Shown piece by piece: positions 34,701-41,740 of a stretch of DNA of 50,263 nucleotides. Source of the DNA: Anaerococcus porci (GTDB lineage Bacteria > Bacillota > Clostridia > Tissierellales > Peptoniphilaceae). The translations under genes and the position numbers were made by a program. Under the pieces are notes generated by a model. That model was given only the letters and a program-made list of their open reading frames with translations. It searched no databases and was not told where the DNA came from. Positions within the stretch are counted from its first letter, which is position 1. Each line of letters starts with the position of its first letter. The stretch covers positions 1 through 50,263 of the forward strand of contig NZ_VULQ01000013.1 in assembly GCF_009696575.1 (NCBI RefSeq), in the 5' to 3' direction.

Positions 34701-36236
34701 ATGGAGAAAAAATCTGAAATAATGGTATTGGACTTCGGAGGTCAATACAACCAGCTTATAGTTAGAAGAGTGAGGGAGATGGGTGTATATGCAAGTCTAC
34801 ACGATTGTGATGTGGACTTAAAAAGCCTTAATCTTGAAAACTTAAGTGGAATAATCCTTACAGGTGGGCCACAATCAATTCACAGCGAAGAAAGTCTTAA
34901 GCTAAACCCTGAAATTCTAGATTTGGGAGTACCAGTTTTAGGAATATGCTATGGAATGCAGGCTCTAGCTTATCATTTTGGTGGAGAGATAAAACAGTCT
35001 GAGAAAGGGGAATATGGAAAAACCCCACTATTTGTAGACCAAAGATCAGCACTTTATAAAGAAGTTCCACAAGAGTCTATAATATGGATGAATCATAGAG
35101 ACTCAGTAACAAAACTTAAAGAAGGATTCAAAAAAACAGCTTGGTCACTAAATTGTCCTATAGCTGGATTTGAAAATGAAGAAAGAAGCATCTATGCGGT
35201 ACAATTTCATCCAGAAGTAGCCCATTCGGAATATGGATTTCAAATACTTGAAAATTTCGTATTAGATATCTGTAAGGCAGAAAAGTCATGGATTATGAAA
35301 GACATCGCTCATGAAACAATTGAAAAAATTAGGAAAGAATATAAGGGCGAGAAGATGATATGTGGACTTTCAGGTGGAGTAGACTCAACAATAGCTGCTA
35401 GCCTAGTCCATAAGGCAATAGGAGATAATCTCCAATGTATTTTCGTAGATCATGGTCTTTTAAGAAAAGATGAAGCAAAATCTGTAATGGAACAATATAA
35501 AAAAATTGGTCTTAATGTAAAAATGGTAGATGCTTCCAAAGAATTTCTAGAGTTACTTAAGGGAGTAGAAGAACCAGAAGAAAAAAGAAAAATAATTGGA
35601 AATCACTTTATAGAGGTATTTGAAAGAGAGGCTAAGAAATTTGGAGATGCAAAATACTTAGTCCAAGGAACAATTTATCCTGACGTTATAGAAAGTGGAA
35701 AAGGTAAGGGATCGGTAATAAAATCCCACCACAATGTTGGAGGACTTCCAGAAGAAATGCTCTTTGAAGGGGTAGTAGAACCATTAAGAGAGCTTTTTAA
35801 AGACGAAGTTAGGGCACTTGGAGAAAGTATAGGAGTGCCAGAAGAAATGGTATGGAGACAACCATTCCCAGGACCAGGGCTTGCTATAAGGATCTTAGGA
35901 GATGTAACAGAAGAAAAACTAGAGATAGTAAGAGAAACTGATGCAATCTTAAGAGAAGAAGTTAAAAACGCAGGCCTCGATCGTGATATATGGCAATACT
36001 TCACAGTATTTACTCCACTAAGAACAGTAGGAGTAAAAGGAGATGAAAGAAGCTATGACTACGTAGTGGTAGTAAGAGCAGTATCAAGTAAAGATGCTAT
36101 GACAGTAGAAGCTTTTGATATGCCATACGAACTACAACAAATCCTCTCAAATAGAATGATAAATGAAGTAAGAGGAGTTGGGAGAATAGTCTACGATATA
36201 ACAAGCAAACCACCAGGAACCATTGAGTGGGAATAA
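34701..36236 (+). CDS. guaA: GMP synthase (glutamine-hydrolysing)
   Basis: The 511-residue protein has an N-terminal glutamine amidotransferase with the catalytic Cys in GICYGMQALAYHFGG and VQFHPEV. The ATP pyrophosphatase loop LSGGVDSTIAAS follows near residue 223, and the C-terminal dimerisation domain ends at PPGTIEWE. It converts XMP to GMP. AGGAGG precedes the ATG. No purine riboswitch fits in the 8-bp gap upstream. It is the last backbone gene before the accessory region. Confidence 0.97.
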   Translation: MEKKSEIMVLDFGGQYNQLIVRRVREMGVYASLHDCDVDLKSLNLENLSGIILTGGPQSIHSEESLKLNPEILDLGVPVLGICYGMQALAYHFGGEIKQSEKGEYGKTPLFVDQRSALYKEVPQESIIWMNHRDSVTKLKEGFKKTAWSLNCPIAGFENEERSIYAVQFHPEVAHSEYGFQILENFVLDICKAEKSWIMKDIAHETIEKIRKEYKGEKMICGLSGGVDSTIAASLVHKAIGDNLQCIFVDHGLLRKDEAKSVMEQYKKIGLNVKMVDASKEFLELLKGVEEPEEKRKIIGNHFIEVFEREAKKFGDAKYLVQGTIYPDVIESGKGKGSVIKSHHNVGGLPEEMLFEGVVEPLRELFKDEVRALGESIGVPEEMVWRQPFPGPGLAIRILGDVTEEKLEIVRETDAILREEVKNAGLDRDIWQYFTVFTPLRTVGVKGDERSYDYVVVVRAVSSKDAMTVEAFDMPYELQQILSNRMINEVRGVGRIVYDITSKPPGTIEWE

Positions 36237-36851
36237 TCCTAAGATTTTTTAAAAAACTGTTTTATTTCAAAGGTTTAGCTTGTTAGAATAGACAACTGGC
36301 AAAGAGTTTAAAAAGAATAAATTCAACAATAGCTTCAAGTGGCTTTAAAAAAATAAAAAAATTAGACCGTAGCTTAGTTGTTACGGTCTTTTGCGTCTAT
36401 TTATGTTTTTTCAGGAAACGTAATTTCTTAGGAAAATGTAATTTCCAATTTTTAAATCTTTTGTTATATAGAAAATTCTAAGACATCGAATTTATTAAAA
36501 AGAAAAACTTATAAAATAGAATAGAAAAAATTAGCTAAAAATATATTTAACAGAGAAAAAATTCTATATAGTCGACCTCAAACCATTTAGAACTCTAGAA
36601 TTACTGTTTTTAAATTTAATAAATAATATTAATCAAATAACTAAAGTTACAAATACAATTAACCTTATTAGAAAAAGAATATTGACTATATGAAGGAAAA
36701 ATTGAAGAGTTATCTAATAAATTATGGAATGTGTATATATATTATTACGAAAATAAACTTTATGAATCCATGCAATTAAAGAATCTTATACCTATAAGAA
36801 GTTTAAATTTATTGTATAATATAATTTAAGAAAGTTAATTGGATTTTAAAG
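36237..36851. other. Gene-poor AT-rich junction between guaA and the restriction locus
   Basis: About 600 bp with stops in all frames. It contains the terminator at 36364-36393 and a segment at 36310-36339 resembling 43782-43811. A TATAAT lies at 36815-36820, upstream of the broken regulator. No intact gene was recognised; short frames look like decayed coding DNA. Confidence 0.5.
36364..36393 (+). terminator. Probable terminator downstream of guaA
   Basis: AGACCGTA pairs with TACGGTCT, followed by TTTTG. It is 128 bp after the guaA stop. Confidence 0.65.
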
Positions 36852-37090
36852 GTGCTTGGCACAAGGAGTAAAGAAAAGCCTAGCTTTGAAAAAAATATTT
36901 TTAAGATAGACCAAGTTTTAGAAGAAAAAATATAAGTAAAAATAAATTAGAAAAGTGTGCAAATCAACAAAGGACGCAACTTAATTCTTATTGCAATAAT
37001 AAAGTAAAAAGGATTGACTTAGAAACACTTTCAAAGATATGTTATGTTCTTGATTGCAGGATTGAAGATATAGTGGAGTATCAAAAATGA
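36852..37090 (+). pseudogene. Frameshifted XRE-type regulator in front of the restriction locus
   Basis: One frame from a GTG at 36852 reads through FKIDQVLEEK and then hits a stop. Near 36925 the reading moves by one base into ISKNKLEKCANQQRTQLNSY, IDLETLSKICYVLDC and IEDIVEYQK. Joined, these make a complete small Cro/CI-type helix-turn-helix protein (about 80 residues). Its TGA overlaps the ATG of the next gene (ATGA), so it was translationally coupled to the restriction enzyme. Such regulators often control restriction-modification genes. A sequencing error at the A-rich site (GAAGAAAAAATATAAG) is possible. Confidence 0.65.
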
Positions 37091-39060
37091 AGTTAAAAGA
37101 AAAAAGTACAGATTTATGGGTCTATGATTTATTAAAAGAGGCAGAATTAAATTTAGATGCACAAGGTTCTAACATAAAAGAAATAGATGAGGCGCTTAAA
37201 ACTGCGTCTAAAAGAGGAACTGGGAAAGTAGGGTTTCCTGAATATGTAGGAATAGTTAAAGACTTTATTATTGTTATTGAAGATAAAAGTTCTATTTCTA
37301 TGCATGAAAAAAGAACAGAAGAAGAAATCTTAGCAGAAGATATTACTTCTATTTGTGATTATGCTGTTAATGGTGCTTTATTTTATGGAAAACACCTAAT
37401 AAAAAATACTTCTTATACAAAAGTAATAGCTATTGGAGTTTCTGGAAATGAGAAAAAGCATAGAATCAGTCCTATATTTGTTAATGATAGAATGGACTAC
37501 TATGAACTTCCTGAAATAGAAACATTTATTTCCTTTAGCGAAGATAATATTTACGAATATTACACAAAAGAAATCTTAAACGAAAATACAGATTTTGAAA
37601 AAGAAACTAAAGAAATTTTAAGAGATGCAGCATTATTACATGAAGATTTAAGAAATTATGGTTCAATTCAAGATAAAGATAAACCATTGATTGTTTCAGG
37701 GATTCTACTTGCCCTTAGAGAAATAGAATATGGGAATTTTTCTATTGACATGCTAACGGGCGATTCTAAAAAAACAGATGGGCAAAAGATTTATGATGCT
37801 ATTAAAGATAACTTAAATAGAGCGAATGTATCTCCTGATGTAAAAAGAGATAAATTATTAAATCAATTTTCGGTGATTAAAGATACTACAAAAATTAATC
37901 AAATAGATACTAATCTAGGGAAAACACCAAATAGACATTATACAGAATTCCTATATAAAAGTATATTTCAATCAATTAGATTTCATCAAAGTGGAGAAGA
38001 TTATTTAGGAAGATTCTATGGGGAATTTATGTCTTATTCTGGTGGAGATGGGCAATCTCTGGGAATAATATTAACCCCAAGACACATTACAGAACTGTTT
38101 TGTGATTTATTAGATTTAAAACATACTGATAAAATAATGGATCCATGTTGTGGAACGGCAGGATTTTTAATTGCAGCTATGCATGATATGCTGCAAAAAA
38201 CAGATGATGATTTTGAAAAAGATAATATTAGAAAAAATCAACTATTTGGAATAGAAGATCAGTCGTATATGTTTACTATTGCTACTACGAATATGATTTT
38301 AAGAGGAGATGGCAAAAGTAATCTTGAAAATCAAGATTTCTTAAAACAAAATCCTGCTAAGCTACAATTAAAAGGCTGTACTGTTGGAATGATGAATCCC
38401 CCTTACTCTCAAGGGTCAAAAGATAATCCTAATTTATATGAAATATCTTTTACTGAACATTTACTTAATTCACTTGTAGAAGGAGCAAGAGTTGCAGTTA
38501 TTGTACCTCAATCTACAATGACAGGTAAGACAAAATACGAAAAAGAAACTAAGGCTAATATATTAAAACATCATACACTTGAAGGTGTAATAACCTTAAA
38601 TAAAAATACTTTTTATGGAGTTGGAACAAACCCATGCATAGCTATTTTTACTGCTGGTATACCTCACCATAAGGATAAAATTTGTAAATTTATTAATTTT
38701 GAAGACGATGGATATGAAGTTGCAAAGCATATTGGACTTATCGAAACTCCATCAGCAAAAGACAAAAAGCAACATCTTCTTGATGTATGGTTTGATAGAG
38801 TTGAAGCAGAAACAAAATTTTGCGTAAATACAACAATAGAAGCTGATGATGAGTGGTTACATTCGTTTTATTATTTTAATGATGAGATTCCAACAGATGA
38901 AGATTTTAAAAATACAATTGCTGATTATATTACATTTGAAGTTAATATGATTACTCATGGAAGAGGATATCTTTTTGGGGTTAAAGATGAAGAAGAGGAA
39001 TCATTTAACGATAATTCTTTATTAGCTGCTGAAGATAGTGAAGAATATGAAACAAAATAG
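37087..39060 (+). CDS. BcgI-like restriction-modification subunit (nuclease fused to N6-adenine methylase)
   Basis: The 657-residue protein has a possible PD-(D/E)xK nuclease domain at the N terminus: GFPEYVGIVKDFIIVIEDKS, with the E-D-K signature near residues 60-65. The middle and C-terminal parts are a gamma-class N6-adenine methylase: DPCCGTAGFLIAAM (SAM motif I) and NPPYSQ (catalytic motif IV). This fused layout, together with a separate specificity subunit, is that of type IIB enzymes such as BcgI, whose A subunit is of similar size. A conventional HsdM would lack the nuclease part. It overlaps the broken XRE upstream and the specificity gene downstream. Confidence 0.8.
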   Translation: MKLKEKSTDLWVYDLLKEAELNLDAQGSNIKEIDEALKTASKRGTGKVGFPEYVGIVKDFIIVIEDKSSISMHEKRTEEEILAEDITSICDYAVNGALFYGKHLIKNTSYTKVIAIGVSGNEKKHRISPIFVNDRMDYYELPEIETFISFSEDNIYEYYTKEILNENTDFEKETKEILRDAALLHEDLRNYGSIQDKDKPLIVSGILLALREIEYGNFSIDMLTGDSKKTDGQKIYDAIKDNLNRANVSPDVKRDKLLNQFSVIKDTTKINQIDTNLGKTPNRHYTEFLYKSIFQSIRFHQSGEDYLGRFYGEFMSYSGGDGQSLGIILTPRHITELFCDLLDLKHTDKIMDPCCGTAGFLIAAMHDMLQKTDDDFEKDNIRKNQLFGIEDQSYMFTIATTNMILRGDGKSNLENQDFLKQNPAKLQLKGCTVGMMNPPYSQGSKDNPNLYEISFTEHLLNSLVEGARVAVIVPQSTMTGKTKYEKETKANILKHHTLEGVITLNKNTFYGVGTNPCIAIFTAGIPHHKDKICKFINFEDDGYEVAKHIGLIETPSAKDKKQHLLDVWFDRVEAETKFCVNTTIEADDEWLHSFYYFNDEIPTDEDFKNTIADYITFEVNMITHGRGYLFGVKDEEEESFNDNSLLAAEDSEEYETK

Positions 39061-40117
39061 ATTATCTTTAAATGATGTGGAGTGGGGAGAGTTTAAGATA
39101 AAAGATATTTTTGAAGTTTATTTATCTAAAGGAGATAACAAGGCTGACTTATTAGATTGTGGAAATATACCTTTAATTTCTTCTGGGTTTAACAGTAATG
39201 GAATAACAAAATTTATTAATCGCGGTGATGGTATAAGTGAAATTATCCCTAAAAATACTATTACTGTTGATATGTTTGGTAAAGCCTTTTATCAAGATTT
39301 TGATTATTATGCTGTATCACATGGAAGAATTAATATCTTATCTCCTTTATATAACCTTAACAAAAATCATTTATTATTTTGTATAAATTCAATAGATAAT
39401 GCCACAAAGAATATTTTTTCTTATAATAGAATGTGTTCAAGTTCAAGATTAAGTAAATTAAAAATATTATTACCAGTGTGTAATAAAGGCAATCCCAACT
39501 GGCAATTTATGGAAGACTATATTAAGCAAGAGCAAAAAGACATTGCACAGAAAGTTATAGATTATTATGAGCAAAAAATGCTTGAAACATCTTTTGATTT
39601 AGTAGGACTTGAAGATGTTGAATGGAAAGAATTTAATTTCAATGATGTATTTAGGAAAATACAGAGAGGAAAAAGACTTAAAAAAGACGATCACATAGAT
39701 GGTAATACGCCATATATTTCTTCAACGTCTTTGAATAATGGCTTAGATGGATTTATTGGAAATTATGAAAATCTAAGGAAATTCAATAATAATATTACAC
39801 TTGCTAATAGTGGAAGTGTTGGCTCTTGCTTTTATCATGAATATGAGTATATAGCAAGCGACCATGTTACTTCCTTAACTTTGGATAAAGCTGATAAATA
39901 CATTTATCTATTTATGGCTACAATAGTGAAAAGACTCGAAGAAAAATATTCTTTCAATAGAGAAATAAATGACAAAAGAATAAAAAATGAAAAGTTTATC
40001 TTACCCACAGATAAAAATGGTGAACCTAACTGGGCATATATGAGCAAATTTATGCAAAAAATAGAAGCTGAAAATCTTCAAAAAGTGCTTGAATATATAT
40101 ATATATATATAAGTTAG
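39047..40117 (+). CDS. Specificity subunit, short-phase form with two recognition-like domains
   Basis: The 356-residue protein has two type I S-like target-recognition domains. The first begins DVEWGEFKIKDIFEV (to about residue 165), the second DVEWKEFNFNDVF (about 190-345). Each ends with a NPNW/EPNW block and a helical spacer. Two domains in about 350 residues is the size of the BcgI B subunit, so this form may be functional. The C terminus is YIYIYIS, encoded by the AT tract, and stops just after it. I start at the ATG 39047 overlapping the methylase gene; a GTG at 39038 is an alternative. Confidence 0.8.
   Translation: MKQNRLSLNDVEWGEFKIKDIFEVYLSKGDNKADLLDCGNIPLISSGFNSNGITKFINRGDGISEIIPKNTITVDMFGKAFYQDFDYYAVSHGRINILSPLYNLNKNHLLFCINSIDNATKNIFSYNRMCSSSRLSKLKILLPVCNKGNPNWQFMEDYIKQEQKDIAQKVIDYYEQKMLETSFDLVGLEDVEWKEFNFNDVFRKIQRGKRLKKDDHIDGNTPYISSTSLNNGLDGFIGNYENLRKFNNNITLANSGSVGSCFYHEYEYIASDHVTSLTLDKADKYIYLFMATIVKRLEEKYSFNREINDKRIKNEKFILPTDKNGEPNWAYMSKFMQKIEAENLQKVLEYIYIYIS
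40093..40111 (+). repeat. Dinucleotide tract (AT)9A in the specificity gene
   Basis: Nineteen bases of alternating A and T lie inside the coding frame. The upstream frame ends in TAG at 40115-40117. The downstream frame is one base away in phase, so loss of one AT unit (or gain of two) removes the stop and joins it. This is the classic form of a slipped-strand phase-variation tract. Confidence 0.9.
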
Positions 40118-40650
40118 CCATTTCTTATGAGAAAAAATTACTTCCACTTCACAAAAAAGAGTGGAAAGAATTTTGGCTTGAAGATATTGTTGATATTGAA
40201 TCAGGAAAAGATATTTATGAAAGGGAAAGAATTGATGGAAATATCCCTTATGTAACAGCAACAGCTCAAAATAATGGTATTGGTTATTTTGTTAATAATA
40301 TAAATAAAACTTTAGAAGAAAAAGCAATAAGTGTAAATCGAAATGGATCTGTAGGTTATGCTTTTTACCATGATTATAAAGCTTTATATGGAAATGATAC
40401 AAGAAAGCTAATTCCTAAATATAAAAACAAATATTCTTCTTTATTCTTAACAACAGTCATAACTAAACAAAAAGAAAAATATGGATATGGTTATAAAATG
40501 GGAACTGGAAGACTCAAAAGGCAAAAGATATTATTGCCTATCAATGAATTAGGAAATATTGATTTTGCTTATATGAAAAAATATATGCAAATAGGAGAAA
40601 TAAAAGAAGAGTACAAAATCCTAGACTACTATTACAAATTGTTGAATTGA
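40118..40650 (+). other. Out-of-frame third recognition domain (the extension in the other phase)
   Basis: This is an open frame without its own ribosome site that continues from the tract as LAISYEKKLLPLHKKEWKEF and ends at TGA 40648-40650. It encodes a full third S-like domain: KEWKEFWLEDIVDIESGK, GNIPYVTATAQNNGI, SVNRNGSVGYAFYHDY, LKRQKILLP and NIDFAYMKKYM. It parallels each of the two upstream domains, so it is preserved coding sequence rather than decay. With one AT unit less, a 533-residue protein would be made. A terminator follows directly. Confidence 0.8.
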
Positions 40651-40770: not shown

Positions 40771-40790
40771 ATATGCAAGGAGGATTGAAT

Positions 40791-41150
40791 ATGCTTACAC
40801 AATTAGGAATTTTCTTAAGAAAATTAAGATTAGACCATGGCGAAATAATGAAAGAAATGGCAAAAAAACTTGATGTCAGCTCCTCATTTTTGTCAGCGGT
40901 TGAAAATGGTAAAAAGAAAATGCCAGATTCTTGGTATGAAATTATAGTTAACTTGTATAGTCTTGACCAAGAACAACAAGATAAATTAAAGAAATCTATA
41001 GAAGAATCTCAAAAATCAATAGAGATTAATTTGAATGATTTGAATTCTAAAAAGAGAAATTTAGTATTTTCATTTGCAAGAGAATTAGATAATTTAAATG
41101 AAGAAGAGGTGGATAAAATGAATTTATTTTTAAAAAAGGATGGTGAGTGA
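40791..41150 (+). CDS. XRE family transcriptional regulator (ImmR-like position)
   Basis: The 119-residue protein has an N-terminal helix-turn-helix (about 8-65) with MKEMAKKLDVSSSFLSAVENGKKK. A charged helical C-terminal part follows. The ATG at 40791 has AAGGAGG 9 bp upstream. It is followed by an ImmA-type peptidase gene overlapping by 11 bp, the pair used by ICEBs1-like elements and phages to control excision genes. The operator candidate suggests self-regulation. Confidence 0.85.
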   Translation: MLTQLGIFLRKLRLDHGEIMKEMAKKLDVSSSFLSAVENGKKKMPDSWYEIIVNLYSLDQEQQDKLKKSIEESQKSIEINLNDLNSKKRNLVFSFARELDNLNEEEVDKMNLFLKKDGE

Positions 41151-41688
41151 TATAGGCGGATATATAGCAGCTCCTTTATCTAGAAAGGATTTAAGAAGAA
41201 TGGCTTATGAGCTTAGAAAGTTATTTGGGTTTGAAAATAAGCTTGATTTTCCTATAGTACAAGTTATAGAATTTTTATCTAACAAAGGAGTGTTTAACTT
41301 AGAAATATGTTCTATTGATGAAATGGGGACAAAATATGGGGAAACTGTGCCGTAAGAAAACTTAATAAAATTACGAGAAGATATTTATGAGAAGGCTTGT
41401 GATAATGATGGATTTTCAAAATCAACATGTTCTCATGAATTACTTCATTGGTTAATACATGGAGAAGAAACAGTGTCTTTTTGTAGAAGAGAGGAAGATT
41501 TAATGAAAAGAAGAGTCTATGAAGATCCAGAGTGGCAAGCAAATTGCTTTGCTGGTGAGTTGCTTGTACCAAAACATATTGTAAAAGGCATGAGTATAGA
41601 TGAAATTATGGAAAAATGCAATGTGACTTATAGGATGGCTCAGTATCAATTAAGTAAGTATGAAGAAGAAGGATGGGGAAATGATTAG
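41140..41688 (+). pseudogene. ImmA/IrrE metallopeptidase gene interrupted by a nonsense codon
   Basis: The frame runs GGYIAAPLSRKDLRRMAYEL to YGETVP, then TAA at 41353-41355, then ENLIKLREDIYEKA, SKSTCSHELLHWLIHG (the HExxH zinc motif) and NCFAGELLVPKHI, with a final TAG at 41686-41688. There is no shift of frame, and both halves align to one normal ImmA protein of about 180 residues. Only the stop separates them. The front piece lacks the catalytic motif, so the product should be inactive unless the stop is read through. Inactive ImmA would leave the XRE repressor uncleaved. Confidence 0.75.
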
Positions 41689-41740
41689 AAAAGAAAAAAA
41701 CACACTTATTAGATTGTTGGCGCAAACTAAAGTATGTTCT

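Follow-up and report, generated by a model that had tools for sequence, protein, structure and literature searches.

HpyUM032XIII of Helicobacter pylori UM032 is a BcgI-like Type IIG/IIB restriction–modification (RM) enzyme whose target depends on its specificity (S) part: S1 alone gives CYAN7TRG, and S1 and S2 fused give CYAN7TTC (PMC4450513). In the Type I system JHP1422/JHP1423 (M.Hpy99XV), recognition domains 1 and 3 lead to AAGN6TAAAG, and domains 2 and 3, or 3 alone, to AAGN5CTT (PMC3936762). For the Type IIB enzyme BsaXI, deletion of the second target recognition domain with its conserved region (TRD2-CR2) or doubling of TRD1 produces the new specificity ACN5GT; a swapped domain order keeps the old specificity, and TRD2-CR2 alone is not expressed (PMC9159934). 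Here and below, statements on published systems hold as far as the accessible portions of the cited reports go. In this work, we describe an S gene in a stretch of 50,263 nucleotides (nt) from Anaerococcus porci (contig NZ_VULQ01000013.1; the whole stretch is called the window throughout), where an AT repeat lies between two encoded recognition domains and a third domain in another frame. We consider it likely that slippage of this repeat makes a predicted BcgI-like enzyme alternate between a single target, read with two domains, and a target set that is altered or widened, read with three.

The S gene, its domains and the repeat are arranged as follows.

39047..40117, + strand: S (B) subunit in its present phase, with two recognition domains and 356 amino acids (aa) (two PF01420 stretches, 1.1e-43; PADLOC Specificity_II, 6.8e-50)
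39068..39565, + strand: recognition domain 1 (D1), profile match of 153 bits
39608..40096, + strand: recognition domain 2 (D2), profile match of 212 bits
40093..40111, + strand: (AT)9A tract at the D2/D3 boundary, seen in the sequence and by Tandem Repeats Finder, open in all three frames (Ile-Tyr repeats)
40115..40117, + strand: stop codon of the present phase, read from the sequence (frame ...GAA TAT ATA TAT ATA TAT ATA AGT TAG)
40111..40650, + strand: third-domain frame, 179 codons and a stop (40648-40650) (PF01420, 2.7e-19; Specificity_II, 1.1e-33)
40147..40629, + strand: recognition domain 3 (D3), at about these positions, profile match of 195 bits

An alternative GTG start for the S gene at 39038 is also possible. 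With its present nine units the tract is followed by a stop after 6 nt, and the product ends 6 residues past D2; with ten units the stop would come after 1 nt, and with eight only after 539 nt, as the loss of one AT unit (or the gain of two) fuses the D2 frame with the D3 frame. These features bear out an earlier note on this DNA, made from the letters alone, which had described an (AT)9A tract with the frame ending two codons on, a current protein with two S-like domains and a well-preserved third domain reached by losing one AT. In the one sequence of this strain, the present phase does not encode an uninterrupted three-domain chain. No ATG, GTG or TTG lies between the upstream stop of the D3 frame and D3 in the window, so that no D3 product is expected at the present tract length. 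A search of the genome for spare copies of D3 found none at E 0.001 beyond the three domains of this gene. The S protein matched no family in an NCBIfam search and, used alone, no solved structure; an S alignment matched one solved structure, 1ydx, the type I S protein MG438 (2e-8). A chance repeat in an AT-rich genome was considered and ruled out, since dinucleotide shuffling of the window, repeated 100 times, never produced the 19-mer tract, and the 2.23 Mb assembly has (AT)9 at a single place.

The earlier note had proposed looking for the third domain in other BcgI-like loci, and the loci of relatives compared here were chosen by the RM protein alone. Scanning 130 genomes of the family with this protein gave 33 matches, and 19 regions from 18 of the 33 were taken; a public genome collection was scanned with an RM alignment, and the best 80 of 332 relatives were used. 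Behind each RM gene, the three plus-strand frames were searched for S domains with a domain profile, seeded with the domains of the window and five relatives, and with a repeat finder. A repeat was defined as a G/C run of at least 7, a dinucleotide of at least 5 units or a unit of 3-9 bases in at least 4 copies; A/T homopolymers were not counted. The 100 loci were reduced to 75 complete arrays, window included, by dropping 25: eight same-record or near-identical loci (L058, L071, L072, L073, L077, L087, L098 and L125), four without S on the piece (L060, L062, L063 and L064), seven whose contig ends inside S (L094, L095, L096, L110, L111, L114 and L118) and six distant ones with an RM identity of about 29% (L065-L070). 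One locus, L150, was scored as two-domain by hand, as the profile had split its second domain.

A third domain was found in 34 of the 75 arrays, the window among them; 38 have two domains and 3 have one. All 34 three-domain arrays carry a repeat at the D2/D3 boundary, and none of the 38 two-domain arrays carries one within 120 nt past its last domain. The D1/D2 boundary holds a repeat in 11 of the 34 three-domain and 10 of the 38 two-domain arrays. Over the same loci, 55 repeats fall in 7,650 nt of boundary; the RM match and the domain cores, 228,604 nt in total, hold a single one. Within the family, nine regions from other genera (RM identity 55-93%) include the S region, and in all ten, those nine and the window, the third domain and the D2/D3 repeat are both present, with AT units in eight and G in two; of the other family regions, four lack an S gene on the piece, and the remaining six belong to distant systems (RM about 29%) in which no more than two domains were found. 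The units of the D2/D3 repeat differ by lineage: AT in 19 loci (the window's family, Streptococcus, Gemella, Veillonella and others), G in 8 (Bacteroidaceae and relatives, Avibacterium and one member of the window's family), C in 5 (Bacteroidales) and AGCCG in 2 (Moraxella). Three-domain status changes 10 times on the RM tree, at least 9 counting well-supported branches only; the tree is quick and unrooted, so that gains and losses are indistinguishable. A rule this strict, with a third domain always behind a repeat and unrelated units by lineage, suggests that the control has been selected more than once.

Further sets of sequences were read alongside these arrays. Four of the 14 loci on viral contigs are three-domain, and all four have a D2/D3 repeat (L158, L159, L169 and L166; L159 and L169 are near copies of each other and L166 is a near copy of L057); another viral locus, L163, has (GA)10 at D1/D2. 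The RM protein matches 21 plasmid and 8 phage records, and the seven of these loci that were read (L151-L157) have no third domain; L157 has G8 at D1/D2. Two wider genome draws matched the RM protein in 2 of 398 and 9 of 391 genomes, window included, and gave four S regions (three two-domain, one one-domain), none of them with a boundary repeat; L181 from these draws, whose contig is as long as that of L138, is probably the same record, and one further match is the already known L075. At the DNA level, the S gene matched 15 of 61 relatives, including the window itself, with a 314-base match at 64% in G078 and the remaining matches at most 60 bases long and chance-like. When a distant S region from a plasmid (L151, which has no boundary repeat) was compared by megablast with 5,426 E. 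coli genomes, 6 matched, one of them over at least 80% of the query. The distant loci L065 and L066 (RM about 29%) carry AGAA x6 and AGAC x5 between their two S domains, so boundary repeats extend beyond the close family. In L075 and L087, D1 is followed by a gap, an AT tract and a final domain, the order expected if most of D2 had gone from a three-domain array; the gap of L087 has a weak match to a shortened middle domain.

Tract length varies among the relatives, both across genera and between near-identical alleles, as the earlier note had suggested checking. Four allele pairs have the tract as their sole internal indel. At D2/D3, L097/L098 (Bacteroides mediterraneensis and Mediterranea massiliensis) have G8/G9 with 0 mismatches in 1,680, L057/L058 have G9/G10 with 2 mismatches in 1,680, and L159/L169 have 16.5/12.5 AT units with 2 mismatches in 1,642; at D1/D2, L096/L097 have G9/G8 with 0 mismatches in 824. 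The 8-base difference of the L159/L169 pair makes it the least likely of these to be a sequencing error. Both phases are present among the relatives. After the near copies L058 and L098, both out of frame, had been taken out of 36 rows, D2 and D3 are in frame in 14 of the 34 three-domain loci and out of frame in 20, with 8 of 19 in frame in the AT class, which is not far from one in three. With both boundaries counted, 10 of the 34 loci now encode a three-domain product, 15 a two-domain and 9 a one-domain product; two of the 10 uninterrupted three-domain chains were confirmed by three PF01420 stretches. In 35 of the 36 rows, the frames that do not join D2 to D3 stop at most 37 nt past the repeat.

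The earlier note had also held that strong disabling mutations in the third domain would speak against a switch, and none was found: D3 is open. In comparisons of the window with five relatives (L052, L053, L054, L059 and L061), the ratio of nonsynonymous to synonymous substitution (dN/dS), computed only for pairs of at least 70% identity, is 0.084-0.110 for D3; for D2 it is 0.053-0.078 in three comparable pairs. Three of the five D3 partners are out of frame, as is the window. Judged by these ratios, D3 is under purifying selection; a pseudogene was considered and is ruled out by them together with the conservation of the arrangement. Recognition domains also interchange between positions. 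When 199 domains were clustered at 55% identity, with the near copies L058 and L098 and the distant loci kept, the family of the window D3 comprised 48 domains, of which 21 stand as D3, 13 as the second of two domains, 13 as D1 and 1 as the second of three; the family of the window D2 is found in the D3 position at three loci, of which two are near copies. As families are shared across positions, the positions draw on one pool of recognition domains. Where relatives have an in-frame two-domain S protein, a median of 5 residues follows D2 (range 2-21, n=31), and a median of 5.5 follows the third domain (n=34), so that the two-domain product of the window looks complete.

On this reading, polymerase slippage in the AT tract would set the reading frame. 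Two of the three phases would stop right after D2, and the two-domain S would form an RM2-S enzyme that reads a bipartite site with D1 and D2. The remaining phase would read through into a three-domain S, in which, by analogy to JHP1422, the same RM subunit might use D3 together with either D1 or D2, or with the D3 of a second chain. The cell would thereby gain or swap a target of methylation and cleavage rather than lose activity. For the window, we infer that the tract undergoes slippage and that the cell produces an active three-domain chain with a different set of targets; slippage would then change the target, the spacing or the assembly of the enzyme. Given the precedents of HpyUM032XIII, JHP1422 and BsaXI, a switch to a changed or enlarged target set is the best reading.

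Several observations weigh against it. The tract of the window is known from one sequence of one strain, and variation has been seen in relatives only, where G tracts are prone to sequencing error. No near-identical pair spans the full change from two to three domains: in L057/L058 and in L159/L169 neither allele is in frame, and L097/L098 are out of frame at D1/D2 in both alleles. Repeats stand at both boundaries in 11 arrays; in principle these could yield one, two or three domains, but none of them is now in frame throughout. On the viral contig L162, which has four domains, the second and third are not separated by a repeat; a second S gene with its own start begins after the second domain and carries (AG)8 between its own two domains. 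As to the selection on D3, dS is high for several window pairs (0.59-1.97), and dN/dS ranges over 0.032-0.236 when all computed pairs are taken. D3 is also swapped less than the other domains, with a mean identity of 0.78 vs 0.45 for D1 and 0.56 for D2 in six close loci, and of 0.90 vs 0.48 and 0.64 in the six Streptococcus loci; this lower exchange may mean another role for D3. Finally, in the 20 out-of-frame loci the tail past D2 is longer, with a median of 12 residues (5-24).

A different outcome of slippage would be a switch of activity, in which a chain with three domains fails to work or to assemble properly, leaving the two-domain phase as the only functional form. The accessible part of a review shows two S parts for the known BcgI-like enzymes encoded by two genes, and the 15 two-domain products now encoded by the three-domain loci, beside 10 with three domains and 9 with one, also count in its favour. 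However, a mere spoiler would need neither purifying selection on D3 nor a family that is used as D1 and D2, as any frameshift would suffice, and among Type I systems an S with three domains works and yields two motifs (PMC3936762); we therefore regard this as unlikely. Somewhat less probable still is that D3 is also made alone by re-initiation, the tract deciding between fused and free D3, and that dimers of free D3 read a palindrome. An in-frame ATG, GTG or TTG does lie between tract and D3 in several relatives (L055, L056, L078, L082-L084 and L086), and one-domain S proteins work in HpyUM032XIII (S1, PMC4450513) and as BsaXI TRD1-CR1 (PMC9159934). Nevertheless, the window lacks such a codon between the upstream stop of the D3 frame and D3, and HpyUM032XIII is inactive when S1 is omitted (PMC4450513).

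The length of the tract could instead matter mainly through the D2-D3 helix, and hence the spacing, with the changes of frame as a side effect. Repeat-driven spacer change is known for Type I S subunits, and in-frame alleles of one lineage differ by whole codons: 19/31 nt for L056/L090 and 18/36 nt for L083/L082 with AT tracts, and 80/20 nt for L103/L108 with an AGCCG tract. We give this little credence, as D2 and D3 are out of frame in 20 of the 34 alleles and the two non-joining frames close so soon past the repeat in all rows but one. That the window simply holds a decayed gene or an assembly error is hardly credible: a single genome with D3 out of frame would allow it, but the same anatomy recurs in 34 loci from several phyla, and D3 is open and under selection. 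A switch to a changed or enlarged target set thus remains the reading that we prefer.

The S gene (39047-40117) overlaps the 3' end of the gene for its partner subunit.

37087..39060, + strand: RM (A) subunit gene, with an N-terminal nuclease-like region (D59, E65, K67) and an N6-adenine methylase (DPCCGTAGF, NPPY)

The RM protein matches PF02384 (N6-adenine methylase, 2.3e-33), and the PADLOC model REase_MTase_IIG for Type IIG RM proteins covers its residues 5-636 (2.3e-167). Residues D59, E65 and K67, which we take to be the D...ExK nuclease motif, are invariant in a 6-sequence alignment that includes the window and also in a 4-sequence alignment with the BcgI-like RM protein of phage phi-42, which is 47% identical to that of the window and keeps all three. 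NPPY and most of motif I are invariant in the RM alignments; by these and by the family matches, the RM subunit has a gamma-type N6-adenine methylase. The N-terminus of the RM chain thus carries a predicted nuclease motif, as in BcgI-like Type IIB systems. No separate translocating R subunit was found beside the locus among the 29 open reading frames (ORFs) of at least 80 aa that overlap 30000-50263 (positions before 30000 were not examined); only three of these exceed 400 aa, namely the RM gene and two that were read as glyS and guaA. With an RM fusion and a separate adjoining S, which has two tandem domains in the two-domain phases only, the locus is best classed from its sequence as a predicted BcgI-like Type IIB system.

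Some observations concern the surroundings of the RM and S genes. In the window, a gene that we read as guaA (34701-36236) lies directly upstream of the locus, and 36240-37090, before the RM gene, holds short ORFs only, part of which resembles, in our reading, the end of a small helix-turn-helix (HTH) regulator. Behind an HTH gene (40773-41150), a stop breaks up a gene (41160-41690) in which we read a zinc peptidase motif of the HELLH type. Far upstream, 1067-2712 contains long near-perfect tandem repeats (234 bp x4 and 231 bp x3), perhaps of a repetitive surface protein. In the six Streptococcus loci (L078 and L082-L086), about 1 kb separates the RM and S genes; in the one examined (L083:5269-6279), the gap encodes a RhuM-family protein (PF13310, 3.2e-110). 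On a Ligilactobacillus salivarius plasmid (L153:4328-4387), ACACA x12 precedes the RM gene and is a possible expression switch. In G119 (L059, L060, L185 and L186), the RM gene is split at the methylase motif I codons (DPCCG) by about 61 kb, with serine-recombinase-like genes near one end of the insert and conjugation-like genes near the other, as read from translations with no family search. The RM pieces of G118 and G061 (L061 and L062) start or stop at the same codons near contig ends, and the viral L170 diverges there; the motif I codons may be an attachment site of integrative elements.

If the switch operates as we propose, an RM system can move between one and two target sites, beyond on and off, by means of a repeat at a module boundary, and the locus would be a clean setting in which to study the assembly of RM subunits with an S subunit whose domain number is odd. 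A wider generalization strikes us as plausible but slightly more apt to fail than to hold: in Bacillota, Bacteroidota and Pseudomonadota, BcgI-like systems would use slippage as a "domain counter", in which repeats at D1/D2, D2/D3 or both set one, two or three domains, the three-domain enzyme marks and cuts two sites, clones change the identity and number of their targets, and a third domain persists only where it is controlled in this way, perhaps since a permanent three-domain S would be costly or unbalanced. A gene finder that follows a single frame sees a two-domain S and a loose fragment, and such switches may therefore be overlooked in commensals (Bacteroides, Streptococcus, Veillonella and the window's family).

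The earlier note had supposed that a switch from two to three domains in a BcgI-like enzyme was undescribed. That part stands, in that no report of a repeat gating a third S domain was found in the open papers searched; the parts are known separately, and the novelty is narrowed by the one-to-two slippage switch with changed motif of the BcgI-like HpyUM032XIII (PMC4450513) and by the three-domain Type I S with two motifs of JHP1422 (PMC3936762). HpyUM032XIII resembles the window in its RM fusion with a separate S, its repeat at an S-domain boundary and the tract length that decides domain number and, putatively so in the window, the methylated motif (PMC4450513); it differs in having a G tract at D1/D2 and one or two domains, whereas the window has an AT tract at D2/D3 and two or three. 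JHP1422 is like the predicted three-domain phase in joining three recognition domains in one chain, but it is Type I, its TRD2 and TRD3 are identical, a duplication origin has been proposed, and no repeat tract is noted at the third domain in the accessible part of the report (PMC3936762). In the Type I NgoAV, slippage in the G tract of hsdS alters specificity rather than acting as a simple on/off switch (PMC6789123, PMC7394358), although there a full-length S alternates with a truncated form of symmetric specificity. In the Type IIG system JHP1272 / HP1353-HP1354 of H. pylori, specificity is switched by a second tract that brings in a further TRD-like domain; unlike the system of the window, the enzyme is a single chain, and the piece brought in is similar to a portion of its TRD rather than to a complete S domain (PMC3936762). 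The phi-42 system (X94423; named Sau42I in a reference title) shares the 47% identical RM protein with an S gene directly behind it, but it has two S domains and no boundary repeat was found in it. As in the slippage-variable S genes of NgoAV and HpyUM032XIII, the window has a simple repeat in the S frame at a domain boundary, and in four pairs of its relatives the tract length differs between otherwise identical alleles. On its comparative signature, which is unusually clean, the arrangement appears to be a known kind in a new form.

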